Assembly: GCA_002261195.1 (NCBI GenBank)
Contig: MVBO01000025.1
Location: forward strand, 62,001 to 126,000
Origin: Bifiguratus adelaidae
Taxonomy: Eukaryota > Mucoromycota > Endogonomycetes > Endogonales
DNA length: 64,000 nucleotides
Direction of reading: 5' to 3'
This document shows, in pieces, positions 15,844 to 64,000 of the stretch. The notes under the pieces were generated by a model, which saw only the letters and a list, made by a program, of their open reading frames with translations, was not told the origin of the DNA and ran no database searches. The translations under genes and the position numbers were made by a program. Position 1 is the first letter of the stretch. Each line of letters starts with the position of its first letter.

Positions 15844-16871
15844 ATGGGCAAGCAAGCGATCCTTGATAAACCAGGTGACGAAGACTCTTTTCGCATCGTT
15901 GACGTTCCGATTCCTACTTCTGGCAAGGATCAAGTGGTCATTCATGTCGAGTACTCGGGCATCAATTGGATTGATACGCTCATGCGCTCGGGTGAGCTGC
16001 AATTGATGCCTTTTCCTCTCGTGCTTGGATGCGAGGCTTCTGGGGTAATTCATAGTGTAGGCGAAGGGGTTAAGGATTTTGCAGTGGGTGACAAGGTGGT
16101 AGCCTACGCTTGGGTAAGCGGTGTGTTTGAAGAGATTGGAGAAACTCAATGCGATTCTAGGGAGCTTACACCGAATACGTTGTCTCAGATGCCTGGTGTG
16201 TTTTCAAACTGGACACATTGTCGCCTAGACTCGCGGCGGCTGCCCTCATCAATGGTTTTACAGCCCAATATCTGATCACGCAGGGTTTTGCTCTTTCAGC
16301 TGGTCAAGTCGTTGTGGTGCCCGCTGCGGCCGGAGGTACTGGTGGCTGGGTAGCGCAGCTCGCACATCATGCTGGAGCGGTGGTTGTGGGCACCGTAAGT
16401 TCTCAAGACAAGGTCGAAACGGCCAAGAAGCTCGGGGTCGATCATGTCATTGTGACCCATCGCACCGAATTCGATGGGCTGAAGGCCAAAGTAGCCGAAC
16501 TCACGAATGGACAAGGCGCTGAAACTGTGATTGAGGCTATCGGTGGCTCCATGCTGGATCTCCATCTTTCGCTGGTTAAACCAGGAGGCACCGTTGTCAA
16601 CTACGGTGACATGGGTGGATCCTTTAATCCAGAAACAGCCAGAAAACAGGCGGCGCAAGCTGGAAAGACCTTTGAACAGGTCGGACTATCCGCCACGATT
16701 CAAAGCCGTGAGCAGTTGTTACCTATTGTTCAACCTGTCATGGATCTCTTGAACTCTGGCAAAGCAGTGATCAACATTTACGAAGAATACGCATTAGAGG
16801 AAGTTGGACAAGCTCATAGGGATCTAAGCTCACGCAAAACGACCGGTAAACTCTTGTTGCGTCTGATGTGA
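15844..16871 (+). CDS. Zeta-crystallin-type NADPH:quinone oxidoreductase, copy 1
   Basis: Medium-chain dehydrogenase/reductase expected to reduce quinones or enones with NADPH in the cytosol. Two exons (15844-16113, 16161-16871), 326 residues, typical length. It shows the GroES-like half (VEYSGINWIDTLMRSGE, LGCEASGVIHSVGEGV, VGDKVVAYAW) and the Rossmann half with VVPAAAGGTGGWVAQLAHHAGA, the nucleotide-binding Gly-rich loop of this subfamily. No zinc ligands are visible, as expected for QOR. The intron falls right after YAW in all three tandem copies, so it predates the triplication. Confidence 0.93.
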
Positions 16872-17197
16872 GCGTGATGGTTAGAAAGCTTTAGGATTGT
16901 CGCAGATTTATTCTCTTGTCATGGATGCCAATGTCTTTTGATACAATGGAATCTGATTTATTGTAGTAGCGCACTGATTTACACGACGTGGATACGCCTC
17001 AATGGCCATATTTCTCTCCTTGTAGATGGACTGCATGTACACAAAGCCTCGATAGCGAGTCGACGTCTACTCTTTCCCAATGTGTGCTATGTCGCGGTGT
17101 TAGCGGACGTGGACTCTGCCTTGTCGGATCGGCCAGATTCTGCCGAAGCGAAAACGTCTGTCTATTCAACATGTGTTCCTTCGCGGGTTGTCAGACT

Positions 17198-17203
17198 TAT
17201 ATA
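17198..17203 (+). promoter_or_regulatory. TATA-like box of quinone oxidoreductase 2
   Basis: TATATA lies 37 bp before the start codon, in the position seen in the sister copies. Confidence 0.4.
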
Positions 17204-17234
17204 CGTTGGTGGTGTGCCCCCTTTGTCCCTTAAT

Positions 17235-18264
17235 ATGACCACAGGCAAAGTTGCGCTTCTCAACGGACCTGGCGACGAGTCCGCCTTCGTTATCGAAGAG
17301 GTTCCTATCCCCTCGCCAGGCAAGGGGCAAGTGGTCGTTCGTATACAGTATGCGGGCGTCAACTTTATGGATACACAAGTACGGTCCGGCGAAACCAAGG
17401 TCATGCCCTTCCCACTCGTGGTAGGCTATGAAAGTGCCGGTATTGTGCACAGCGTCGGTGAAGGAGTGACCGGCTTTGCCGTAGGCGACAAGGTGATGTC
17501 GTATGCTTGGGTAAGTTAAGCGCGTAGCTCGGGCGTGAGCTCACCATGGACCTCAGGGAGCCTACGCAGAGTATTTACTCGCGGACGCGCAACGCGTCAT
17601 CAAGCTGGACGCGATATCGCCAAAGATGGCAGCTTCCACCATGATCAACGGTTGCACAGCGCAGTATCTGATCACGCAAGGGTTCCCTGTCAGACATGGT
17701 CAAGTGATTGTTGTCAACACTGCGGCTGGTGGCACAGGTGGCTGGATCTCGCAGATGGCTCATCACGCGGGAGCCATCATTATTGGCACGGTGAGCTCGC
17801 AGGACAAGGTCGAGACAGCCAAGAAGCTCAGGGTGGATCATGTCATTGTGACACACCGCACCGAATTCGATGGGCTTAAAGCAAAGGTTGCCGAACTCAC
17901 AAATAGACAGGGTGTGGAAGTGGTCTTTGACGCCGTCGGCGGCAGCATGTTGGATGTCAATCTGGCTTTGCTAAAGCCTGGAGGCACGATCGTGAATTAC
18001 GGTAAACTCGGCGGAAACTTTGAACTGGAAGAAGCTCAAAAGGTTGCCGAGCAAGCTGGGAAGATATACAAGCGCGACGGCTTGATGGGGCTCAACAGTA
18101 CGGAAACACTTATGACGTTAATGAAACCTGTCATCAATCTTATCAATTCGGGCAAAGCTGTGGTCAACATCTACAAGCAGTACCCCTTGGAACAAGTGGG
18201 ACAGGCACACAAGGACCTGACCTCGCGTAGCACCATGGGAAAATTGTTGTTGTGCATGTTGTAG
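17235..18264 (+). CDS. Zeta-crystallin-type NADPH:quinone oxidoreductase, copy 2
   Basis: Tandem paralogue of copy 1 with the same strand, the same single intron (17511-17556) and 327 residues in two exons (17235-17510, 17557-18264). The Gly-rich cofactor loop (NTAAGGTGGWISQMAHHAGA) is intact. The stretch DHVIVTHRTEFDGLKAKVAE is identical to copy 1 at protein level and nearly so in DNA, more alike than the flanks, which could reflect gene conversion. Small differences such as Gly to Arg after KKL and NRQG for NGQG are specific to this copy. Confidence 0.92.
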
Positions 18265-49166: not shown

Positions 49167-50387
49167 CTATTTGAGCGCCATCAAGGCCTCCGCGCAACTT
49201 TTGATGGCCGCAAAATAATGGCACAAGACAGCAACATCTGTAGTAGCATCCATGTCTCGCTTGAGCTGAGAGAGCTTTGTGAGCAAGCTATGTCGAGTAG
49301 CCTCGATAATGTCGGCATCTGTATCCTTGTATCCTATAATCTTGGAGTATGGTATATCTGGATCTGTGGACACGTGGATGATGAGTTGAGAGGGATCTGG
49401 CAACTGCATGCATGGAATGAGCGTGTACCAACCTTGGTTAAGCGTAGGTCGTACCTTTTCCTTATCGGTTGTTTCGTCCACCTTGATCTTCTTGGTTTGG
49501 GGAATGTGCGTCGAGGAGAGCTTGGCGGCGGTTTCATAGAGTCCCATGCGGTCATTGGTAGGGTCCTTTGAGACTGTTGTGGCTTGGGTCACTTGCGTGG
49601 AGGGGGTGGGTGTAGGTGCATTGCTTGTTTCGAGCTCTGAACCGGGGTCTGTAGGGTTAAATGTCTTTCCGCAAATGACGCATTGGATTTCCTTGTTTCT
49701 GTTTTGCACTAAGGGAATCTGTGGGTGGAAAGAGGGCGTATGAGCACGTTATGGATCCAAGGCATCGTGTGATACTTGCCCCGTAGCATGTCGGTGTAGG
49801 ACATATGTCATTGAGCATGGTCCATCCCACCATCATGCGCTCGCCAATAAGACGAGATCCTCGGGACGATTGCTCGCGTTTAAGGCTGGCCAGTTCTCTT
49901 TCTGACAGTTCTCGATTGTCCGACGTTGTTTTGCCGGTAGGAACCGGGACATAGGCATTGATGCGCGCTTGTATCCGTTCTGCTTCCTCGTCCGAGTCCG
50001 TCTCGGTGGTCGACGCCTCGTTGTCAGCAGCAGAAACCTCTGCGCGCGGGTGATGGTTGGGCGTTTCCAGTGCAGGTGTCGATGGGTTCGCGCTCGTGTT
50101 GCTCTGCGCGGCCTGTTTATCGTGAACAACACATAAGCGTATTGACCGATCTTTGGAACGCAACATGGGCACATTGCAACCAGGCACTGGACAATTCTCG
50201 TCGGTCAGGACCTAGGTTAAGCAATAAGTCGTCCGTCAACACATATGAGTCTCTTGCTTACCCATCCCTGTAGCAAATACTTGCCAATGAGTGCAATGGC
50301 CTCATCGTCGGTCATGGCTGGGTGATCCAATAAGGAAAGTGTTCCAAGATTGCGCAGACTTTTGGCTTGCGTTGTGCTTGTGCTCAT
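49167..50387 (-). CDS. Autoantigen p27/ZNRD2-domain protein
   Basis: Protein with two zinc domains of the Sjogren/scleroderma autoantigen 1 (p27, ZNRD2) type. Three exons (50262-50387, 49780-50211, 49167-49718), 369 residues. Domain 1: LIGKYLLQGWVLTDENCPVP then GCNVPMLRSKDRSIRLCVVH. Domain 2: IGERMMVGWTMLNDICPTPT then CYGIPLVQNRNKEIQCVICG, with four Cys as ligands. An acidic Ser/Thr linker lies between, and a helical C-terminal region (ATRHSLLTKLSQLKRDMDAT) follows. Intron 2 (49719-49779) has a GC donor in perfect context (gcaagt). The biochemical role of the family is not settled. Confidence 0.87.
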
Positions 50388-50634
50388 CCTACAGCAATTG
50401 TCTTCAATCATGAGATCCAATTAGGCGATAGTCATGTTACAAAGTGCACTCTATGGACAAGGAATCATTTAACCAAGCCTGAAGGGAAAGACTGACTTCT
50501 CAATCCTGATGATCTCTCCCCCGTAGTTATAGACAAAGGCCACAGTGTTGCATCTGGACTGGTCGGCAACGTCGTATACAGTGATTCAGTTTCAACCATA
50601 ATATGCACCATCTTCGCACCAGTTTGCATAGTCT

Positions 50635-51042
50635 TCATAATCCGAATTGGCCGAGATTACCAACGGGATCCCAGAATTCGCGAGCAATCATGCGTAAGTG
50701 TCGAAAGTAGTCTACAAACTTTAACAGGTCCTCGTCCCTTCCTTTTTGGCAAAGATGAACGTTTCGCCTTGCAGCGTCCTCGCGTCGGCAATGACAAGAT
50801 TCAATGGAGACGAAACGAGGCTTCATCGGGGGTAAAGTTGGCATATTGAGGACCCTCGAGAATGATGAGATGCGGGGACGCGGGGACGCTGGGAATTCGC
50901 CGTCGTCTATGAGAAGTCGAAGCTCTGTCCACCGGATGTCGTCGCTATAGTCGGTGCGCACGCAAACGGCGTTATCACCATCGTGTTTAGAGTTGGTCCA
51001 TGCGAGTATTTTCACGTTCTTGTTTTGCGAGTTGTCGGCCAT
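50635..51042 (-). pseudogene. Orphan gene copy A, frameshifted
   Basis: Reads MADNSQNKNVKILAW and then AVCVRTDYSDDIRWTELRLL, clearly related to copy B at 53.7 kb (MCVRTEYSDDVRWAEFKLLV). After LLIDD the homology continues in another frame (IILEGPQYANFTPDEASF), then a third (LVIADARTLQGETFIFAKKE), and returns to the first near LRMIAREFWDPVGNLGQ. So at least two or three frameshifts relative to the ancestor are visible unless undetected introns explain them. I do not recognise the family. It is the outer end of the left arm of an inverted duplication. Confidence 0.6.
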
Positions 51043-51199
51043 GTGAAGCAACGTAGGGAAGCGAGCTCGCGATGTTTGATATCATGTTCCTTTGATCGTC
51101 TTGCCGCAGTACTTGTCCCACGTGTCACGAACGTGTGATCATGTGGCTTTGATGTGCTGGGCATGAGTAGTAATACGTCAAGTCAACCCTTTAGTCAAA

Positions 51200-51540
51200 G
51201 ACAACACCTTGAGGTTTCTCAACCAAACGGTCTTGATGCGTTCATATGGCAGAGCTCCTCACGGACGCTTTAGGGTGGTATGGACGGTTCGGACCTCTTG
51301 CGGCCGCTCAGACACACTTGGAGACGGTTACGGCGGCTTACCGTCGCTTACAGGCGATTTCTCTTGGTTACGGTCGCTCAAGGTCTGTTATGGACACTTA
51401 GGGATGGTTACAGTGGCTAAGATTATCGTTATGGATTGCTTATGAGAACGCCTGACAGCCGGTGACGGACACTTCTGGACTGCGGGTCACCGTCCCTCCA
51501 CGGCTGTCATGGACAGTCAGACCCCTGGTGGCTACTTATG
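51200..51540 (+). repeat. Degenerate G/T-rich tandem motif region
   Basis: A run of imperfect units around GGTTACGGTCGCTTA (GACGGTTACGGCGGCTTA, CCGTCGCTTACAGGCG, GGTTACGGTCGCTCA, GGATGGTTACAGTGGCTA) with strong G/T bias on the plus strand. Unit length is irregular. It contains no gene and resembles a decayed minisatellite. Confidence 0.5.
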
Positions 51541-51589
51541 TTCCGTGCTGAGAAGTTTTGGTGTCGAGCCCGGTAAAAAATAAAAATTA

Positions 51590-52035
51590 AATTGCCCACA
51601 GGCAGGATCGAACTACCGACCTTCAGTTTACAAGACTGACGCACTACCACTGTGCTATGAGGGCGTTTGATTATCCGATAATATGGCTAGCAAAATACAT
51701 TCTAAAAATAGTTTGCAGCCCTAACCCTGAAGTTCTACAGTCACCTTCCAAATAAATGAGCAATTTTCGTGGCTGCAGAAAGCGGGTTTAAGTTGTCACA
51801 ATACCAGCAAATGCCCCAAGTTTACTTCAACCGCTCAAAAGCTGTAGGTGGTATGCAGTAATCTCCAGTAGCATTGGAATATGAGCCCTTTACCGTGGAG
51901 TTCATATCTTCTGATTAAAGAGGCAGAATCGAAAAACAGATATGCAAATCCGTTTCACATTCTTGGCTGACCATCTACGTGCAACACTTTATTGGCATTG
52001 GATGGCGTCTTGCCGTTTGCTCTTGAAGCGACATG
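51590..52035 (+). repeat. Left arm of a diverged inverted duplication
   Basis: This stretch is matched in reverse complement by 52939-53345. The best-kept block contains GGTTTAAGTTGTCACAATAC in both arms; further matches include ACCGTGGAGTTCATA, GGTTAG-GCTG(C/T)AAACT and the first half of the tRNA-Thr gene. Identity looks like 60-75 percent with small indels, judged by eye. Confidence 0.8.
51593..51664 (-). tRNA. tRNA-Thr (anticodon TGT)
   Basis: A 72-nt cloverleaf can be folded: D arm GCAC/GTGC, anticodon arm TCAGT-CTTGTAA-ACTGA with anticodon TGT, T arm GGTAG-TTCGATC-CTGCC, and discriminator A. The acceptor stem has one T:T mismatch (fifth pair). There is no intron. Downstream on the gene strand is a T-rich run (51,575-51,590) serving as Pol III terminator. 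A degenerate partial copy lies in the mirror position at 53,311. Confidence 0.88.
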
Positions 52036-52938
52036 TTGATACCTAGATACATTAGTTGGATCGGTAGCGATCGTGAGCCCATAATGATATAAACATGTAA
52101 TCAATCGGGTCAGGATGATAGCATCAGCAACAAGAGATAGCATAAGAGAAATAGCGAAAAAAGGAGAGAATCATCCCTAGTGTTGCTCTTGCAAATAGCT
52201 TGCTTGACTCGTATGAGGTAAGCGTATCCAATTTTTGTGCATGCTATGTATATGCCACGTATGCGACCTTCTATCGCGTGGCACTATTATATCTGAGTAT
52301 CTTTGATATGGAACTGCTATATTTCTGAGCCTTTGCTACACTTTCTGGACGATTGGCTATAACTGAGCACATTTTCATCTTTAATTGTTGCGAATTTACG
52401 CGACCTGATTAGTCAATGTCGTGAATGTTGACACCTTGCGTGTGGTCGAGAAAGCAAAACCTCTTTATCGTGACGCGCGGAACAACGTCTATCGAGCGGC
52501 ACCATTCTTTTCCTTGAGTCGACGTTGGTGTATGTTTGGCTTACCGGTCAAAGCAATCAAAGCAAAGTGGATAATTTTTGTATTGAATGAAGGCCACACT
52601 CATCAATGGAATCGGGAATGATCAATAGCAAAGCATGCGGAGGGAAATGGTGGCGGCCCATTTCCCAACAACTTTTATTTGATCCTTTGAAAAAGCTTTT
52701 CGTGATAAAGATGGGAGGAAATTAGTAGCACTATTTGTATTTATTTCTCATCCTTTAACGAGAATCGGTACTCACGATCTCGCATCCGCTTGGACTCTAT
52801 GGCTTAGCCACTGAAAGCCAAGTCCGGCTGGAACCGGTTCCGGCTTGGGTCTGCGAGGGTTCAACGTATGGTTCACGATGAACCTGTGGAGTGCTGTGAA
52901 GTCACCAGCGTCTAGTCGGGGTCTTCAAGATCTCAAGA
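52036..52938. other. Spacer between the inverted arms
   Basis: About 900 bp of A/T-rich DNA with no supported gene. A short plus-strand open frame (52421-52621) has no motif. Symmetry between the arms fades at both edges. Confidence 0.45.
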
Positions 52939-53345
52939 GATTGCATCAAGAGCATGTGGGAAGACCCCATCCAATTTAGATAAATTGTCGCACCTGCAGG
53001 ATTTGCCAAGAAGAGAAAGTGATTTGCAATCCGTGTTTTGTCAAATTTGGCTCTGGAATCTGAACGGGTATGAACTCCACGGTAAGGGCTGATAATTTCA
53101 ATGCTACTAGAGATTACCGCAGAGCATCTACAATGTTTGAGCAATTGCGGTAAACTTGGGACACTTGCTGGTATTGTGACAACTTAAACCTGCTTTCTGC
53201 AATCACGAAAAATACTCGTCCTTTGGAAAGCGGATGTACGAACCTCAGGGTTAGAGCTGTAAACTGCCTTTAGAACTAGGTTCTCTAGCCCAATTTCCAG
53301 GTAATGCATAGCCCTCATAACACAGTGATAGTGCATCATTGGCGT
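52939..53345 (-). repeat. Right arm of a diverged inverted duplication
   Basis: Reverse-complement partner of 51590-52035. Order of landmarks from centre to edge is the same on both sides: unique block, GGTTAG segment, tRNA-Thr sequence, orphan gene. On this side the tRNA has decayed. Confidence 0.8.
53311..53340 (+). pseudogene. tRNA-Thr relic
   Basis: GCCCTCATAACACAGTGATA and the next 10 nt match the 5' half (acceptor and D arm) of the intact tRNA-Thr at 51593-51664, with about four changes. The anticodon and T arms cannot be found. Its place mirrors the intact gene within the inverted duplication, so it is the lost sister copy rather than a random fragment. Confidence 0.7.
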
Positions 53346-53700
53346 TCGCAACCATGCGCTTCCTATGAAGTGATCAAAGTATATTATATCTAATTTAGTG
53401 TATTGTAAGCAAATGATCTGATAGCCTGAAATTGGATGTAATGGTTGCGACGATTCCGAGATGGGAATTGAAGATATACAAGTCGACCTAGGGTGAAGCT
53501 TGCGTTTCTTTGTTATGCGGCGCCTATTTCATGAGTGGCAACTTACACTATATGAGCGCAAAGTAGAGCAATACTTTTACTTGCCGACTGTACCTCTTTG
53601 GGTTGTGTGATTGCTCTATTGAATCAAAGCGTGGGGCGTCAAAAGGTGATGTCCGCGTGCCAAATCCGTGGAATGTAGGACACAATTGAAGACTATTCAC

Positions 53701-54170
53701 ATGTCTTCATGGCGATCAAAAAAGGACAAGGATACACTTTTGCAGTGGACGGAGGACGACTTCGATGGTGCTTGGACCATGTGCGTCCGCACAGAGTACA
53801 GCGATGATGTGAGATGGGCAGAATTCAAGTTACTCGTGGACGAATTTGATGCCATGATTATCTATTTCGAAGGAAGTCAGTATGCAGACCTGGGCTTGGA
53901 AGACTTATTTCAACGCTTGCGGTCCCGTCCCTTATTCCTCGCCCTTGCGGACTCCCGCACTACGCGAGACGAGACATTTGTTTCGCTGCGCGTGATTTCG
54001 ATTCCAATGCAAAGGACTCCTTAGATCCCTTTCGCAGCTTTTGCATCATTACTCACGAGCTCTGGGCACCAGTCAACAACCTTGGGACTGCCAACTCGGA
54101 TTTTGAGACCTTTGAGCTTGATTGCGTAGACGGTATACAATACGGGCTTCCACCACCGACGGCAAAGTAG
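53701..54170 (+). pseudogene. Orphan gene copy B, probable single frameshift
   Basis: Starts MSSWRSKKDKDTLLQWTEDD and runs through MCVRTEYSDDVRWAEFKLLV, IIYFEGSQYADLGLEDLFQR and LALADSRTTRDETFV. The open frame then stops at 54022-54024. Shifting one base near 53,983 continues homology to copy A: ARDFDSNAKDSLDPFRSF then CIITHELWAPVNNLG, to a TAG at 54168-54170. So it is one missing base from a longer frame of about 155 residues. The family is unknown to me. The protein is acidic and aromatic, with no signal peptide or membrane segment. Confidence 0.6.
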
Positions 54171-54657
54171 CTTCCCGGAGAGTGTGACTACATCCTTTGT
54201 TCGTGTCTTAATGTGTTACACATGCTATAAAGACACCCACCTTCTACACTTACTTGCTAAAACGGCTTTTCTGGCTTCCTCTAAGTTCTTGTCGAAGAAT
54301 ATTCCGTTTGACAGCTGGAAAGAAAAGAAGTATGCGATGTATGGCAGACGATTGTGGATTGGCAAGCGAATATTACTCTGCCCCGCTTGCGCTCAAGCTA
54401 CGCCTGGTTGTCTTGCACTTGCTTGTAAAGCAATGACACGGCGTCAAGCAATGTGTAGATATTAAGGCAAGCGAAGCGAATCCTGATCATATTGACGAAA
54501 GAAGCATACAGCATGTCTGCTCACGGTACCGACTTGGGGGTTCACTAGACGCTCGGAGCATGTGCCTACTGAGTTATTGCGTGACGCCGTATTAGACCGC
54601 GACACTTCTTCACTGATCAGTTCTTTTTGCCGAAGGGCCAGTTTACGAGCCGGCAGC
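54171..54657. other. Spacer upstream of the O-methyltransferase
   Basis: Nearly 490 bp with no supported gene. The methyltransferase frame is open from 54562, but its first ATGs give sequence unlike the family, so the leader is assumed to lie here. Confidence 0.4.
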
Positions 54658-55616
54658 ATGCTGCGACATAACAGCCTTGGCCGCACAGTCTGGCAGTCTA
54701 CACTACGCATCCCTCACATTCACTATGCGCATCGCGTTGCTGCCCGCAAGTCAGGTGAGGGAGACAGCAACGTCGAGTCAAACGATCTATACGAACGTTA
54801 CCTTACCTCTGTGACGTCGCCTACGCCTCCTATGCTCTCCAAACTCTCTCAGTTCACGGAGCAAAAGAGCAGGCGAAGCCATCAAATGGTGCACCCGTCT
54901 CAAGGTCGTCTGCTCTATCACCTTGTCCGTCTACAACAACCGCGCCGAATCTTGGAGATTGGCTGTTATACTGGATATTCAGCGATCTGGATGGCACTTG
55001 GACTGGGAGAGCAAGCTCTTTTAAAAGGCGAGCCACGGATATGGACTTGCGAAGTGGATGCAGATGCTGCTAGCATCGCCCAGGGAGCCTTCAAAGAGAA
55101 TGGAATACAAGACTTGATTGTCTTGAAACACGGCCCGGCAATTGAAAGGTAAGGCCGGGAATGTGACTTGTCGACACACTCACTTTTTGCAAAGCCTGCG
55201 TCAATTTCCGGTGGGCATGTCTGGTATACAGTTCGACTTTGTTTTTCTTGGTAAGTCCCCTCACGTTTGAATGAGCATGCCATTGACGCAACGTAGATGC
55301 TGACAAGTCCAACTACATCACATACTACTACACCATCATGAATCGAAACCTCCTTAGTCAACATGGAGTGATTATCGCAGATAACGGTAAGCAGGGTTGG
55401 CGGCAATTCACCACCCACAACCCACATTAAGGGCACCGTGTAGTTCTCTTTCGCGATGAAGTCTATCTAGACGAGCCCCCAGGAGCGACATCCAGGCATA
55501 TGCGCGCGTTTAATGAACATGTCGCCAATGATCCACGCGTGGAGCAAGTCGTGTTGCCCCTATTCGATGGCATATCAATCATTCAACGAAAGCAGAAGCT
55601 GCGATGCCCTCTATGA
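54658..55616 (+). CDS. CCoAOMT-like SAM-dependent O-methyltransferase
   Basis: Methyltransferase of the caffeoyl-CoA/catechol O-methyltransferase class (Methyltransf_3). Four exons (54658-55148, 55195-55250, 55297-55386, 55444-55616), 269 residues. Motif I is RRILEIGCYTGYSAIWMALG; the acidic SAM ribose contact follows in TCEVDADAAS; the metal-binding DADKSNYITYY and GVIIADNVLFRDEV segments are intact. The N-terminus (MLRHNSLGRTVWQSTLRIPH) is basic and could be a mitochondrial presequence. The start at 54658 was chosen to expose it; an in-frame ATG lies at 54562. Substrate unknown, typically a catechol or other vicinal diphenol. Confidence 0.9.
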
Positions 55617-55773
55617 CAATGCTTACGACGCAGAGCCGTAGACAAAACCTCTTCTTCATTATCAAATAATACAGTCATCTATCACATTTCCACACGGCCT
55701 ATTGTACATGATGACAAGTCTCTTTGGTATGCTGAATAAAAGTCTATCCTGCAAAGTACCTGTCTTGCGTTCC

Positions 55774-57240
55774 TCAATCAAGATCCTCTGGGAAGGTCCC
55801 CGGTAGTGTTTCCTCTCGCGGTTGACTTGCAGAGTTCGCGGTTGTACTCGTTCCGCTACTGCCTTGGTTTTGAGCTGAATTTGCGGCATTAAAAGGAGAG
55901 GTGCTGGCATTAGCACTATTTGAGCCGTCCTTGTCGTCGTGACCTGCCTTTTGCACTAAAGAATATCGGCTACCGAGAGATATTTAGCACCAGACTCGAT
56001 AAGCGCTTTAAGAATATTTACCAGACAGGACAGGTACCATTCACCTTCAGCCAAGGTTTTATGCACTCCTCGTGAAATTCGTGGTGACACGGCAATTGCG
56101 TTGTTTTGTCATCCAGCAAGAACTCATCTTTGCAAATCGCACATTCTGGGGACCGATCTAAGCTTCGCAGTCAGCCGTCTTGTAGAACATGCACGATTTG
56201 GCACTCACCTAGATCCGCTTGTGTTATTGTCCGACCAGGTAAATGCTCGATGGTTTCCTCAGATGCCGGTGGTGGTGCGTTTTCCCTGTTTGTCAAGAGT
56301 TGAGGAATTACGAAATCAACAATGCCCCCCCCCGCGGTGGCTACATACTGGTTATATTGCTCCATCATACGTGAGACTATATTGTCGAGAGCAGCCTGAC
56401 TACCAACATAATCACCAAGGTTCATATTCGGGTGTGGCGCTAGACCGAGCAGCTGGAAGAATGCCTCTAGTGGATGCCGTCCCTGCTGCTCGCCACTGGA
56501 GGTGTTATCAGAGCCAACATGTTCGGCTTCGTCCACGTTGTTCGATGCTCCGCCACTGTTGGAACAAACATAAATGTTAACGTAACCCTTGAAGTGACAT
56601 GTTGATGCATATATTCACCTGCTATCCCCAGTATTCCCCCATGTTCGACGAAAGACATAAGGTCTACCGCCAGCGCCTATGGTAGAGAACTCAAATGTGA
56701 CCCCACCCCCGCCGCTAAAGGCCCCACCGAAAGGACTAGAAGCTCGGTTGAAGGGAAACGCGCCAGGATTCCGCGTATTGTCGTTTCCACCTGATTCGGT
56801 AGAAATATTTGTGTTTGCATCTCCTTGTGGAGGACCTGCTCCGGAATCTGTCGAGAAACCTCCATCCTCCTGTTCTCCTGGTTGTCGAAAACTGGCGTCC
56901 ATACGACCGCCCAAGAGTTGCTGTAGAAAGAGTTGTACCAAGTCTTGGTTTCGGGTGATTCGGCCCGGATGTGAGAAAGGAAGGTCGCTCAGCCTCTCGT
57001 TGTCATACTCCTCCGCCAAAAGCTCAAACTCGTTGGCGTCTGAGCCTTCAATCTAACATGAACGAGATCCTTTTAGAGTCGCTGCGCATTTTAGGCCAAC
57101 ATTGAACTCACCTCTTCCACGAACTGCCCGTGACACATAGGACACGTGGGCTCCGGCGCCATAAGTGCGGCTACTTCGGCCTCGCATTGATGGCACCAGT
57201 ATGCAGGTTGAGCCCGGGGCGTTGGACTCCCTTCTGACAT
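55774..57240 (-). CDS. RNF126/RNF115-like RING-H2 ubiquitin ligase
   Basis: E3 ubiquitin ligase of the BCA2/RNF126 type, linked elsewhere to quality control of mislocalised membrane proteins. Five exons (57112-57240, 56619-57052, 56209-56555, 56022-56157, 55774-55969), 413 residues. The N-terminus has the zinc ribbon YWCHQCEAEV...CPMC. A long disordered, Gly/Ser-rich middle follows. The RING-H2 domain reads PECAICKDEFLLDDKTTQLP, CHHEFHEECIKPWL and CPVCR, with all eight ligands present; the last Cys is split by an intron. A region before the RING (IEHLPGRTITQADL) matches the family. The Gln/Ser/Asn-rich tail is short. Confidence 0.93.
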
Positions 57241-57524
57241 GTTGGAAGAGAAGTAGGGCGGAAAACGTTGCTGGCAATGATATCAAGTGCGTAGGTCACG
57301 TGACTATAACCAGAAAGCATTGTGTTTCGACCTAGCTTAGGTTGACCTTTGTTCCCTGCATCATCATACTATATTGGCTTTTAAGTGGCAACGACATGAG
57401 TGAAGTTCTCCTACTTGATCGGTCAATTGGAGGCAATCTGTAGCCAAGCCAAAGCGACCGTGGCAAGACCTTTCGGAACTGACCGTCTTAGGTCTGCCAG
57501 CCTCTCTGCGATCTCTGTCTTCCT

Positions 57525-57564
57525 ATGACGGCGCCTGGCACTCAAATTGCGGTTATCATTGTCG
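57525..57564 (+). pseudogene. Isolated first exon of a flavin-type gene (remnant)
   Basis: ATG at 57525 starts MTAPGTQIAVIIVG and meets a GT donor at 57565. This looks like the beginning of a Rossmann FAD/NAD fold (hydrophobic strand ending in VG, normally followed by GxxG). No downstream exon with the GPxGL-type continuation is present; the DNA runs through short open frames to 57,960 and then into the repeat tract. I read it as a truncated gene start, with low confidence. Confidence 0.25.
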
Positions 57565-58317
57565 GTTTGTACGTTTCCTCCTGCTCTACGGCAAACACGC
57601 TACGTCTACGCAAGTAGTGAAAGTCTGTCAGCTGGTTCTAGGTCAATGCGAACAACCGACCTCAAGTGGCCGCGGTGGAAGCGCCTAAAACAGTCATTAC
57701 GCCTGCCTTCCAGACAAGGCGTTATTGAAATTCCATTTGTCAGACTCAATATGGGCTCGACAATCAAGCTTATGGCTTTTGCTCGCTAACGGGACTGGAG
57801 TACCGAGCCTGCTTATGCTGATTCTTCAAGCGCAAGAGTCGTTTCCGGAACTCGATGGCGGCTTTCGTACTTCACTCAGCTATCAATTAAGCTACCTTAA
57901 GGGTCTTTGTAATCCCCTCTTGAACTTGCCATGCTAGAACCGGCCTTGGTTGCGATATTTCATTCCAATTTAGACTGTCTTGTCATGTGAGGCAGCTTTC
58001 TTCGTAGCAGCATGAGATGAATCTCACCGACCGAATCCGACGTTGAGACGATTCAAAACATATTAGCAATATTGGACGAGGTGTAGGCAAAGAATGCTCA
58101 CCATCTCATCAGTGATTAGATGCCTGAATACCTTGACGCTTCTCGGCAATTGGATCGAGGCATCGACCTCCTAGAGTTAAAGAGGTCTTACTGTAATATT
58201 GTAGCTGAAGGTCTGACTCTGAAAATTCGCTTAAAGATTTCGTCAGGTACAATATCCGTCATTGAGCAGAGCTGGGATCACAAAGAAAAGGAGAACCAAC
58301 GCTTCTCATATGAAATG
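57565..58317. other. Unassigned stretch before the heptamer tract
   Basis: About 750 bp with only short open frames (57547-57789, 57725-57937, 58120-58362 plus), none with a motif. It may contain further relics of the truncated gene. No transposon terminal repeat was seen. Confidence 0.35.
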
Positions 58318-59471
58318 TACTGTACTGTACATGTTTCTCATCCCGCTAACAAAATGTTATAGTAACTACATGCGTGTAACTCATATTTGGCCATGACAGC
58401 GAGAAGACCGTAAATTGTGATTAAAAGCCTCTAGTAAAATGATAGTGACAATCCGTTGTGTCTAAAAGGCCCTTGATACTGTGTTGCGGTCGCAAGAAAT
58501 AAGAATGATAATGTAGTACAGTGTTGAACGCTACTGTACTGTATACAGTAGAATGATATGGAATTGATGGAACTCTTTCGGTTACATTAAATTGTTGCTT
58601 GATATCGTCTTCCCTACAGTATTCTACGACTCGCAACTACGGGTTATTTGCGCAATTTGCTCAGTTTGATTGAGGTCGAGAAAATCGTTTACAGTCTTAC
58701 AGTATTGTACAATGGTACAGTATCACAAACTATGAGTTTACTACTGTATTTATAGAACTGTACTGTACCTCTGCAATCCAAACTTAAGGTAATATATACT
58801 GTACAGTACAGTCACATCTCTCAACAGATGGTTCACACTGTACTGTGCTGATTGATTACTGTAGCGCAATGGGAAACACACAGTATGTACTCTGTCCTAC
58901 AGTACGGTACCTTCTGTTTGCCTTGCCGAAGTTTCAGACTCCTTGACAAGGAAGGATCACTTTTTCTACTGTACAGTATATTCTGCGGTAGCCTGGTTAT
59001 AGTCCATTACAGTACTGTACACCAGATTAATGAACTTTTCTATTTTCTTGACCGTTCAGATTCGTGGCATCTGAGTGAGATGTGGTCATCTTTCATCTCA
59101 AGTCTCCGGACAGACGTCTCACCTACAGCACTGTACCTCAGGATGGCCTCAGATCTCAGCTGAATGATTAATCCATTTCCTTTCCAATTCTAGCTTACTG
59201 TACAGTATCTCAGTTGAGATACCATGAGCTGTCGAGAGATTTCGGCGCAGCTATTACAGTCACACTAACAACTAAGATAGCTTGCAGCAGTTGCTTGTTG
59301 CTCCATTCCCAACATAAAATCATTAAATTTCGCTCTTTACAATAAAAATTCCAGTTACTGTAGAAGGTACAGTAGAGTTAAACGTTTTGATCGTTGGAAA
59401 TACAGTACCGTACTGTACTGTAGGTTTGGATAAATTTATCCTCTGCTATTCGTGTAGCTGCTGTTACTGTA
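58318..59471. repeat. Cluster of 26 TAC(A/T)GTA heptamers
   Basis: Counted by eye on the plus strand: 26 copies of TACAGTA or TACTGTA (each the reverse complement of the other) in 1154 bp, against about 0.14 expected by chance. Copies often overlap by their TA, giving chains such as TACTGTACTGTA (58318-58329, 59411-59422) and TACTGTACAGTA (58797-58808, 58967-58978, 59196-59207). The DNA between copies is not itself repetitive. Three more occur at 61228-61239 and 61300-61306, beyond the transposon. The heptamer equals TA + CWG + TA, the classic Tc1-type excision scar. Confidence 0.9.
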
Positions 59472-59574
59472 TCTATGGAACCCGTTACGGTATTAACTTC
59501 GCATTATCCATACCGACACTCTGTAGGAAGGTCTACATCGTCAATACGCTTGAGGGTAAGCAACTGCACATGTA

Positions 59575-59790
59575 CAGTGGCAGTCAATAGCGTCCCAAGA
59601 ATTGCCTATTTTGACTTTGACGCGTAATTGCGTAACACCCGAAGCAAGTGGGGATTCCAAACTTCTATCAGCCATACATGTGTCCTTTGGCTATCATCTG
59701 CCTGAGTTTCAGCTTCTTAGCCCTTCTGGTGCCGTCACAATCAATGCTAGAAGGCCATAAATTCCTTGGGACAGTTTTGTCCCTGCGCGT
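59575..59790 (+). repeat. Left terminal inverted repeat of the Tc1 element
   Basis: Aligns in reverse complement with 60985-61187 at roughly 70-75 percent by eye. Best-kept blocks are GTCCCAAG-ATTGCCTA, TTTGGCTATCAT, and CTT-GACAGTTTTGTCCC. The two arms have diverged, so the element is not brand new. Confidence 0.8.
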
Positions 59791-59946
59791 CGGACAAATT
59801 TGGGAAGGCAAGAACTCCTTGTACACATACCATTGGCCAATGGCGTGCCTAGTGTAACATTTAGAGGGTACGCGCTATGTATATAAGCTTCAAAATCCCC
59901 AGAAGCCCCCCCAACTGTCGCTCCTGCAGCCAGTTTTGTTCAAACA

Positions 59947-60960
59947 ATGGGTCTCAGCAACGCCAAGGCAAACAACATCAAAATGCTCCACCAGAAAGGC
60001 TATTCTGTCCGCAAAATCGCATCCGAGACCGGTATTTCAAAGTCTACGGTACATCGGTATACCTCAAGCCTGCCTGATGGGCCGCCAATGAACGTCGGTG
60101 GGCGTCCAAAGGCCCTCGGCACCCGCGAAATTAACACCATACGCAAGCTGATCTGCAGCGGTGAACACGATAATGCGGCGGCAGTTTCTCGGTGCCTCGA
60201 GTCAGATTACCACCTGGCTGTCAGCCCAGCTACAGTTCGTCGGGCGCTGCGGTCAATTGGGCTCGTTTCAGCCATCAAAAAGAAGAAGCCTCTGCTCAGC
60301 AAGTAGCACCGACAAGACCGCTTAGACTTAACCGATCGGCATTGCGACTGGACTGTGAAGGATTTCAAGTCCATCTTGTGGTCGGACGAGACCAAAATCA
60401 ACTTTTGGGGTAGCGATGGCCGGCATTATGTATGGAAAGAGCCGGGAGAAAGCCTCAGTGATCGACTTGTTCAGCCTACGCTCAAACGCAACGGAGGACA
60501 TATCATGATCTGGGGCTCGTTTATGTTCCACGGCAGGGGCGATCGCGTTCACATCGAGAACACTATGAACGACCAAGTCTATTCTGTGATCCTGAAGGAG
60601 AATGTGCCTCAGTCTTTACGGTATCTCCGTCGAAATGTCTCGGAAATCATCTTCCAGCAAGACAATGATCCCAAACATACGTCGAAATTGGCACAAGATA
60701 CCATGGATGATATGAGTTTGGACGTTCTACTGTGGCCAACGCAATCCCCAGACCTCAATCCAATCGAACATTTGTGGGACTATCTCAAGAAAAGGCTCGC
60801 CAAGTACAACACAAGGGCATCGGGTGTTAAGGAACTTTGGGACCGGATACAGGTGGAATGGAGCAATATACCTGCCGATTTGTGTGCGAAGCTAGTATCT
60901 AGCATACCTGATAGAGTCCAAGCTGTAATTGCAGCAAAGGGGGGCTACACGAAATACTAA
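59947..60960 (+). pseudogene. Tc1-like transposase with one nonsense codon
   Basis: Two abutting open stretches share one frame: 59947-60306 (helix-turn-helix part, MGLSNAKANNIKMLHQKGYS, VRKIASETGISKSTVHRYTS, GGRPKALGTREINTIRKL) and 60307-60960 (catalytic part). The catalytic triad is WSDETKINF (first Asp), QQDNDPKHTS (second Asp) and PIEHLWDYLK (Glu), with 34 residues between the second Asp and Glu, so DD34E. The only break is TAG at 60304-60306, between the DNA-binding and catalytic halves; there are no frameshifts. Without that codon the frame would be 337 residues, normal for Tc1. Confidence 0.88.
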
Positions 60961-60984
60961 TAAATGGAGATTAAAGATTTCTGG

Positions 60985-61187
60985 TGGGTCGGGGACAAAA
61001 GTGTCTCAAGGAATGGCCCGTCCTCTAGGTTTAATTGTGACGGGACAAGAAGGTCTAGAAGCTGTAAACCGAGCATATGATAGCCAAAAAACAAGGCTAC
61101 ATACATTAGGAAGCTTTGGATGGTTGTTGCGCAATGGCTGGTTAAAGCCAAATTAGGCAATCCTTGGGACGGTTTTGATTGCCACTG
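60985..61187 (-). repeat. Right terminal inverted repeat of the Tc1 element
   Basis: Reverse complement of 59575-59790, ending in CCACTG followed by the TA duplication. It starts right after the transposase stop codon. Confidence 0.8.
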
Positions 61188-61189
61188 TA

Positions 61190-61559
61190 TAGGATTGGGC
61201 GTCAGAGTGTCCGAAAGAGGATATCTTTACAGTACAGTACTTTCTCGGTCAATTCCGTGAGTCCCAGCAGCTTTTTGCGTTCCAAAACAATAAAAGATGT
61301 ACAGTAGCACGCAGACCGGAGTCCCTCTTAATCAACCCTAGGGCCGTCCTACTTAATTAACTTCATCTCTGCTCAAGAAAGAAGACCCTTTTTCTCATCC
61401 CTTCAGCCTCGCCTTCTACAGTGATAGCGTCGGGCATACGGTATCCCCCGACCTTGATTTTTACTTGCACCCTTGAACCTTAGGCCATTTGTAACCCCTT
61501 GCGTTTGCATGCATGGTTACTTCGTATCGCTCGCAGTCACAAGACGACACTGACGCGAG
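61190..61559. other. Spacer between the Tc1 element and the retrotransposon
   Basis: Contains three further TAC(A/T)GTA heptamers (61228-61234, 61233-61239, 61300-61306). An LTR of the downstream gypsy element could end here, but without its partner LTR I cannot place it. Confidence 0.35.
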
Positions 61560-64000
61560 ACACACCAAGAACCTTTCGAAGATTTGCCCACCGAAAGACC
61601 TCAAGACATGGACCCATCAAATATGCAAAGCGTACTTCATGCCATTCCGGAGCACTTAGAGAGAATTAATGCAAGGATCACTTCTCTGGAGATCATGAAC
61701 CATAGAGACGAACCCTAGAGCAACACCCAAGGGAGAAACACCAAAAACATTTCTGCCTCTATGAATAGCCTAAAGCTGGATAATCCACCGATTTACAGAG
61801 GGCAAAGAACTGCAGCTGCCGTTGAAAACTGGTTGTGGCAAGTGGAGACGTACGCGGATCTTTATGCCTTAGGCGACAAGCTCACCCGTCAAACTTGCAA
61901 CGACACTACTGAGGGAGGAAGCGCAAACCTGGTGGAGGAACCATTTGCGAAACACGCCGGCTAGTCAACGTATTTATACCTGGGACAACATCTGCGACGG
62001 CTTGTAAGAAGAGTCCAAGCCGGCTATTAGCGAGCGAGCTATCCGCAACCGGTATATGCGACTGCAACAGACCGGCAGTTTCATCGATTATACGAACGAA
62101 TCGGGAGATCTTCTGCTTCTGCTCGGTAACATGGTGTCGCAACGAGATGCGTAGATATCCCTATCTAGATGGGTTTAAGACGGCGACCCGCGACCTGCAT
62201 CGAGGTCGTTGAAGACATTCGACGAGGCAAGCGTATGGCCACTAGGTTCCAAGCCGTTCTGCCAATTTCAACCGAAGCCCGCGAAGAGCGAGACCATATG
62301 GCGTAGCCATTTGTGCCCGCCTTTCGATACCATTAACGACTCTGTCGGTGGTGAAGTCCGCATGATCTTTGACAATATCAAGGTGTTGACTCCGCTTGGT
62401 CTGCAGGAGCGCCAGCGCTGTACGAATAGGTCTCTGCCTACGATGCCGCTCCCCACCGAAAACACAATCGCCGCGCCATACGACGACACCGCGCCTCAAT
62501 AACATCGAGGAATAACCCCCAGAAGAACAACCGGAGTCGGAAAACGACGATCGACAGTAGAAGTGGGAACATCTACTGTCAACAGTCAAGAAGTTCCCGA
62601 GAGCAGACACACCTCTGCGGCTTGGTCACCTTGGACAAGAAAGTACGGATACATCATCGACATTGTTCACAGTGCAGGGTTATCTCAACGGCTACTCCGC
62701 CCGCTTACTCATAGATAGCGGTGCGTCTAGTAACTTCGTTGACGAGAACTTTGTAACTAAAAGCAACGAAATGAACAAGTCTCTGAAACTTTATCCTGCA
62801 GTTGCCAAGTTGACGGATGGCTGAGAACGCAATATCGATGGGAAGTCAAACATTACACCATTAGAGTTGCCAATTATAAGGACGAGTTATCCTTCAATAT
62901 CTTCGGCCTCAGTAGCTACGATGCAATCCTCGGCAAAGCTTGGCTCAAAGGGATCACTCCCGAGATCGATTTAAGAAGACGTGATGCGATTCATACACAA
63001 TAGGGAAGCAGTAGAGACACGATCAGACGAGCATCCTTCGCAATAAGTCACACCGATTCAAGTCGTCGAAGAATATGTCCAAAGTTTTGAGCTAACCGTA
63101 GGCAACCTACAGGAGGAAGGCGCCTGTTTGGGGTCTTTGTAACGCCACCAAATGTAGAGGAAGAGCTGCCTCAAACCAGTGACAGCCACCCCAAGATGTC
63201 CGCCTTGCTACAAGAGTATGAGGAAACATTTCCTTCTGAATTGCCTGCGGGCTTACATCCTAGTCGGCCCAACTCCGATCATGAAATAGTGTTGGAACCA
63301 GCCACCACCCCGCAAGCGCGTTCGCCATACCAAACTTCCCTTAAGGAACTCGAAGCCTTACGTCAAGAAATCGACACAAGGTTGGCTAAAGGTTGGATCA
63401 GACCCACCTGCTCACCGTGGGCTGCGCCCATGTTATTCGTCAAGAAGCCGAATGGGACGCTGCGCCTTCGTCATGATTGCCGAATGCTAAACAAACACAG
63501 CGTCAGAAAGCGATATCCGTTAACTTTGATGCAAACGGCTGATTGACCTCGTTAAAGACGCTAATTTTCTCCACGCTGGACTTACATTCTGGACATGACA
63601 AGTTCGAGTGAAAGAAAGCGATACTCTGAAGACAGCGTTCAAGACACGCTACGGGTCAAACGAATGTTTAGTAATGCCGTTTGGATTAACGAACGCCAAC
63701 GACGTTTCAGGCGCTATTGAATCACTTGATCCGACCTTACCTTGATCAATTTGTGGTCATATACATTGACGACATCCTGGTGTTCTCGCGAAACGACGAG
63801 GAGCGTTTGGACCACCTACGGACAGTGTTTGAGATGCTAAAGAAGGAGAAGCTTTACGTCAAACGAAGCAAGTGTAAATTCTTTCAAAGAGGCCGTGCCA
63901 TACCTGGGACGTATTATTACTCGTGACGGCGTCAAAGTGGACGAGAACAAGGACCCAATCAATCAAAGAATGGCCGAGGCCTCGCAATGCGCACGAGATA
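61560..64000 (+). mobile_element. Decayed Ty3/gypsy retrotransposon, 5' part, runs off the window
   Basis: Gag-like start (SLKLDNPPIYRGQRTAAAVE then NWLWQVETYADLYALGDKL, about 61761-61950), an aspartic protease site (ARLLIDSGASSNFVDENF, about 62700-62755) and reverse transcriptase (63196-63926). Order gag-protease-RT is that of Ty3/gypsy. Stops and frameshifts interrupt every domain, so it is a dead copy. Integrase and the 3' LTR would lie beyond the end. Confidence 0.85.
63196..63926 (+). pseudogene. Ty3/gypsy reverse transcriptase, broken
   Basis: First block: SALLQEYEETFPSELPAGLH then EIDTRLAKGWIRPTCSPWAA and PMLFVKKPNGTLRLRHDCRM, stopped by TGA at about 63544. The second block resumes in another frame with [20 protein letters not shown] and then FVVIYIDDILVFSRNDEERL, where YIDD is the catalytic box. 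At least two frame changes and several stops separate them. Confidence 0.85.

Follow-up and report, generated by a model that had tools for sequence, protein, structure and literature searches.

TAC(A/T)GTA islands in Bifiguratus adelaidae as probable excision footprints of a Tc1/mariner transposon

What crowds a single seven-nucleotide sequence into little more than one kilobase of a fungal genome, close to a Tc1 element? The question arises at a locus of Bifiguratus adelaidae, which we take to belong to Mucoromycotina, in a genus presumably placed in the Endogonalean order. The window, that is, the whole 64-kb stretch that was analysed (C167:62001-126000), contains 36 copies of TACWGTA, whereas 100 dinucleotide shuffles gave 4.07 (sd 1.83) and never more than 8. 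The initial annotation had described a dense tract of this 7-mer, and its count proved exact: 26 copies lie within 1154 bp, where about 0.07 would be expected by scaling from the shuffles. Eleven have the form TACAGTA and 15 the form TACTGTA; the second is the reverse complement of the first, so they represent one 7-mer in two orientations. The TA-sharing chains that had also been described there are present as 7 pairs at a 5-nt offset. The tract is AT-rich, with a GC content of 0.395 versus 0.486 for the first 58 kb of the window, and only 6 heptamers occur in the rest of the window (~61 kb) outside 58189-61306. The features of the locus are collected in Table 1.

Table 1. Features at the heptamer-rich locus (window positions unless otherwise stated)
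Feature	Position	Strand	Details
Outlying heptamer, left edge of the island	58189..58195	.	
Putative scar tract	58318..59471	.	26 TAC(A/T)GTA, 7 TA-sharing pairs
Tc1/mariner element with target-site duplication	59573..61189	+	element 59575-61187; TA at 59573-59574 and 61188-61189
Transposase frame of the Tc1 element	59947..60960	+	HTH part 59947-60303; DDE_3 part 60355-60960
Three further heptamers (one chained pair), right of Tc1	61228..61306	.	
Decayed retroelement, read here as gypsy-type	61500..64000, on to ~L020:960	+	RVT_1 match C167:125696-125890 (= window 63696-63890)

The Tc1 element that had been claimed about 100 bp from the tract is indeed found there, with TA, CAGTGG...CCACTG and TA in this order. 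The TA duplication, the terminal inverted repeats (TIRs) and the HTH and DDE_3 domains (E=1.8e-15 for the latter) are all present; the TIRs begin CAGTGGCARTCAA, and their CAG tip agrees with the putative scar. An in-frame TAG at 60304-60306 indicates that this copy is broken and its transposase frame not intact. Past the window end the array continues with 55 heptamers in C167:127059-129885 (L020:1059-3885), and the whole island at the locus covers C167:120189-129885, or ~9.7 kb, interrupted by the Tc1 element, the decayed gypsy-type DNA and another Tc1 end. Gene-like frames flank this island on both sides; no open frame of at least 150 aa was found within window 56580-60355, and the island is probably gene-free. 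No heptamer was found inside the window's Tc1 element or in the gypsy debris at 61310-64000, and most scars at the locus therefore seem to be older than both insertions.

The genome assembly of the one strain searched (18.63 Mb, 286 contigs) shows how such tracts are distributed. TACWGTA as a whole is not in excess genome-wide (3077 copies versus 4433 of the reversed pattern), whereas the TA-sharing chains are, with 274 versus 21 two-unit and 40 versus 0 three-unit chains. Thirty contig stretches (148,129 bp), the island at the locus among them, were picked for bearing chains and read; owing to this selection they contain 1365 of the 3077 heptamers and 241 of the 274 chain pairs. Their dense parts comprise 41 segments (66,142 bp) with 1318 heptamers and 238 chain pairs, or ~20 heptamers per kb, versus ~0.09 per kb in the rest of the genome (1712 in ~18.48 Mb), a ratio of ~200-fold that is inflated by the choice of chain-bearing stretches. 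Even so, the islands stand out clearly from the remainder of the window with its 6 heptamers in ~61 kb. Scars would make up about 10% of the dense island DNA. We estimate 15-25 islands, apparently gene-free and also collecting gypsy debris; the number is loose because the assembly breaks at islands. Many islands end contigs and several others are internal to contigs; among the matches listed, no contig has two separated islands, and one 929-kb contig carries only a single isolated chain. Eleven of 17 RVT_1 matches lie in islands or within ~3 kb of them. A subtelomeric identity of the islands was rejected, as four telomere-like patterns gave no match in the 30 stretches and several islands are internal to contigs.

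The islands also have diverged repeats in common. A longer island-repeat query gave 34 listed matches, all on contigs with island signs, which on C209 consist only of a one-mismatch Tc1 end and on C76 of a single chain; the matches are 70-89% identical if the query's own copy and one match of 24 nt are set aside. A repeat of ~123 bp was noted at C167:128498-128620 (L020:2498-2620), which may be a piece of an LTR or a centromeric repeat.

These repeats were used as stand-in alleles. They are paralogues within one genome, not strains, and are mostly ~60-90% identical, a divergence at which single gaps can be misplaced. If heptamers arise by excision, empty alleles should lack exactly 5 nt, as the initial annotation had proposed, and paralogues show such states at a considerable share of the heptamers that could be tested. 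In all-against-all alignments, a paralogue exactly 5 nt shorter with the TA kept was found for 70 of 319 testable heptamers versus 8 of 203 other TANNNTA sites; counted in pairs, which are reciprocal and not independent, this state occurred 242 times versus 17. A second control of 772 TAC-starting non-motif sites gave 54 pairs with an exact 5-nt gap leaving TA. The other common states at heptamers, again in pairs, were a 4-nt gap (135), identity (119), substitution (114) and a 5-nt gap without TA (76). Distinct isolated insertions peaked at 5 nt (72 of 4 nt, 121 of 5 nt, 33 of 6 nt) and at 10 nt (5 of 9 nt, 21 of 10 nt, 9 of 11 nt), and 76 of the 121 5-nt and 17 of the 21 10-nt insertions overlapped a heptamer. 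Forty-nine of the 5-nt insertions can be written as TA-xxx-TA and 72 cannot; the inserted triplet was CAG in 24, CTG in 23 and CAA in 2, so that 47 of the 49 have CAG or CTG content.

The ~123-bp repeat gives a similar picture. It was aligned in 22 copies. The longer query had matched 34 places, of which 12 were omitted as partial, as belonging to another part of the query or as lying outside the read stretches. In this alignment, judged by eye, most of the 32 heptamers are 5- or 10-nt insertions at TAs that are plain in other copies. Collapsing the heptamers to TA raised the mean pairwise score from 60.7 to 67.6, with 184 of the 231 pairs better, 28 worse and 19 equal, whereas 30 control sets, in which 5 nt were deleted after other TAs, had a mean of 51.6 and a largest value of 54.2, all below the raw set.

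Heptamers fixed across divergent copies, which had been named in advance as evidence against excision, were partly seen. Among 164 heptamers with at least one informative paralogue, 86 had only filled or decayed counterparts, 43 only empty ones and 35 both; with at least two informative places (n=72), 18 were all empty, 17 mostly empty, 9 tied, 9 mostly filled and 19 all filled. In these counts a one-base variant of TA still passes as 'empty' and up to two mismatches as 'decayed', and informative places were binned by 20 nt, so that one copy may count more than once. Heptamers common to paralogues are what one would expect from duplication of already scarred copies or from repeated hits at hot TAs. 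Filled heptamers show no insertion by themselves; they include scars older than the repeat duplication, possibly hot-TA reuse and perhaps original sequence. The clearest insertions are four heptamers within Tc1-derived copies (C44:29828, C232:88104, C96:2718 and C139:121), for which there was no filled counterpart and 21, 16, 15 and 13 places, respectively, without the 5 nt (TA or a one-base variant). In up to four alignments viewed for each, the TA was kept at C44:29828 and was itself altered in some copies at C232:88104.

At the level of sequence, then, the alignments show heptamers occurring as +5-nt insertions, or +10-nt for chains, at TA with CAG or CTG content. The tract itself is not among these comparisons: a genome search with 58318-59471 returned only the tract, and the island alignments had no paralogue over it. 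The identity of its 26 heptamers is thus judged from the remainder of the island to which it belongs and from the other islands, and it is from these places that the central claim of the initial annotation, serial excision of a Tc1-type element, draws its support.

We regard the TAC(A/T)GTA heptamers as very probably (probability about 0.92) the excision footprints of a Tc1/mariner transposon with CAG-starting ends. Insertion at a TA would duplicate that TA, and excision would leave the two TAs separated by 3 nt from one tip, as TA-CAG-TA or TA-CTG-TA, for a gain of 5 nt per cycle; TAs of earlier scars, when reused, would produce overlapping chains, and local hopping combined with nuclear clustering of the islands would keep the element within them. 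The identical 7-mer, in both forms and at TA, is described as the canonical excision footprint of Sleeping Beauty (PMC3432063; PMC4378557).

Tc1-type excision by the resident family, with TIRs beginning CAGTGGCARTCAA, is the most likely origin of the heptamers. Of the 22 exact TIR ends (TACAGTGGCARTCAA) in the genome, 19 fall within the island stretches (148 kb); the remaining 3 are within 370 bp of contig starts, outside the 30 stretches. A heptamer distribution unrelated to Tc1 copies, which had been put forward as a possible refutation, was accordingly not borne out. Against this stand the 10 stretches without a TIR and a further 13 ends with one mismatch, which are scattered: 6 are inside the stretches and 7 outside them, and the control predicts ~5. 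It is also possible, if rather unlikely, that the heptamers are scars of another CAG-tipped Tc1/mariner element, either a lost family or short MITEs, with which the resident Tc1 is merely co-located. Ten of the 30 stretches have no TIR, the window's Tc1 has an in-frame stop, other DDE_3 families that have long open frames are located beyond the read stretches, and few exact TIR ends survive beside the 1318 scars of the dense segments. On the other hand, the tip of the resident family fits, and most of its exact ends are in islands. Within the stretches, scars outnumber exact ends by ~70 to 1 (1318 versus 19), which demands very frequent excision, element loss or the copying of scars along with repeats; in the last case there would have been fewer events than scars. 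Since other DDE_3 families exist outside the islands, the source family of the scars is one that we only infer. The DDE_3 matches outside the read islands are on C177, C134, C28, C43, C123, C154 and C200 and at C1:273611 and C207:380413, several of them with long open frames.

A centromere motif was our first hypothesis, and it was dropped because the paralogues showed 5-nt insertion units. In that reading, which we now consider highly improbable, copies of the heptamer arose by point mutation and selection and act as a box to which a protein binds at a centromere or silencer. The islands are AT-rich and apparently gene-free, hold most of the reverse-transcriptase matches and have many heptamers common to paralogues, and Malassezia has short regional centromeres of 3-5 kb with an enriched 12-bp motif (PMC7025860). 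However, heptamers look like insertions of 5-nt units at TA, even inside Tc1-derived copies, and neither the exact 5-nt TA-sharing nor ANNTANNT requires a box. Forms with one mismatch are over-represented whichever of the seven positions differs, none being protected, and transitions are highest at the six positions where the classes are comparable, indicating neutral decay of scars. Scars with one change are estimated by subtraction at roughly 400-430, some TACAGTG among these being possibly Tc1 tips. A programmed or host-domesticated excision, comparable to that of ciliate internal eliminated sequences and distinct from selfish hopping, would fit the very high scar-to-element ratio and the strong confinement, but it is very improbable, as elements remain inserted in the assembly and ordinary Tc1 behaviour suffices. 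Growth of a pentanucleotide microsatellite (TACAG)n by slippage, suggested by runs of up to 6 units with a 5-nt period, can practically be dismissed, since 882 of the 1080 runs in the dense segments are single units, neighbours in chains are oriented about at random (TT 66, TA 61, AA 60, AT 51; same 126, opposite 112), which slippage would not give, and Tandem Repeats Finder reported no tandem array in 50000-64000.

Under Tc1-type excision, the chains can be used to ask how often the TAs of scars are used again. The 238 chain pairs observed exceed the 158-174 (sd 10-12) of an urn model in which only original TAs are targets and fall below the 273-281 (sd 13-16) of a model that gives every TA, whether original or newly formed, the same chance. 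New scar TAs are thus reused, at a slightly below-average rate, and chains represent this reuse; a preference for scar TAs was rejected, the observed count lying below that of the uniform-TA urn. The initial annotation had envisaged a self-feeding hotspot. Its premise of reuse holds, but reuse does not rise above parity, and 1318 scars on 5007 TAs add only about one quarter more targets, so that the feedback, although real, is small and fails to explain the ~200-fold confinement.

The choice of target also resembles that of Sleeping Beauty, for which a bias to ANNTANNT is described (PMC2756404). This sequence was found at 148 of 1079 scarred TAs versus 272 of 3915 unscarred ones (13.7% versus 6.9%, P=2e-11), a modest effect, and scarred TAs have A at -3 and T at +3. 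Among the 19 TIR flanks, 5 have paralogue matches that reach the TA; those on C7 and C232 belong to scar chains. At C218:365223 (paralogues C29:2507 and C167:128356) and C96:244 (C128:3437), Tc1 sits where a paralogue is scarred; at C91:25811, the paralogue C44:31884 is scarred and 9 other places are not. For the TAs on C91, C96 and C218, 4 of 13 paralogous places are scarred; these are paralogues and not alleles, and the fraction is so close to the base rate of 22% of island TAs that the coincidence of Tc1 and scar serves as an illustration, not as proof.

The islands may be centromeres or similar heterochromatin. A CENP-C match was found at C38:22315, and a divergent H3-like gene at C243:15299-15757, besides three canonical H3 matches, is a candidate CENP-A to judge by its loop 1, which is long, and its RRIRG tail. 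Centromeres cluster in the nucleus. CENP-A is reported in the Endogonalean order (PMC9089191), and together with the CENP-C match and the candidate gene this makes a centromere identity plausible. Sleeping Beauty is described as hopping locally (PMC2756404); local hopping of this type and centromere clustering would keep an element in such islands. We propose tentatively, at somewhat less than even odds, that the islands are centromeres and that the Tc1 family is centromere-confined, circulating almost only among clustered centromeres. If so, dozens of hops could be counted from the scars of each island, and this record would itself have lengthened and reshaped centromeric DNA. Mucor has mosaic centromeres with a 41-bp motif (PMC9089191), and the islands are similar to those of Mucor and Malassezia in being gene-poor, AT-rich or transposon-rich and in having an over-represented short sequence. 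In the accessible text of these reports, however, the motifs are not presented as insertion scars, unlike the heptamers, and the islands here are putative centromeres. The case also shows that an over-represented short sequence in centromere-like DNA can reflect scarring rather than protein binding, a caution for centromere searches that rely on motifs.

As a rule, little trace remains of the past hops of DNA transposons. Here, more than 1300 intact footprints in few islands would form a readable record, which would permit target choice, scar reuse and scar decay to be measured in a natural genome and scars to be ordered relative to the Tc1 and gypsy insertions. Fungal Tc1/mariner elements, such as impala, have a TA target, TIRs and an HTH + DDE_3 transposase; the family described here is like them in all of these features and unlike them in being found almost only in islands. 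The footprints described in the accessible Sleeping Beauty reports followed engineered remobilisation, in contrast to the more than 1000 natural scars proposed here, in islands and in chains of up to six. This raises the question of what confines a TA-targeting element ~200-fold to islands. In an abstract-level literature search covering few subscription journals, and hence no proof of absence, we recognised no described excision-scar array, no described centromere motif of the heptamer sequence and no centromere or transposon study of B. adelaidae. Elsewhere in the window, tandem quinone-oxidoreductase-like genes lie at 16218-18264, and the protein from 17626-18261 matches another B. adelaidae paralogue with 46% identity.
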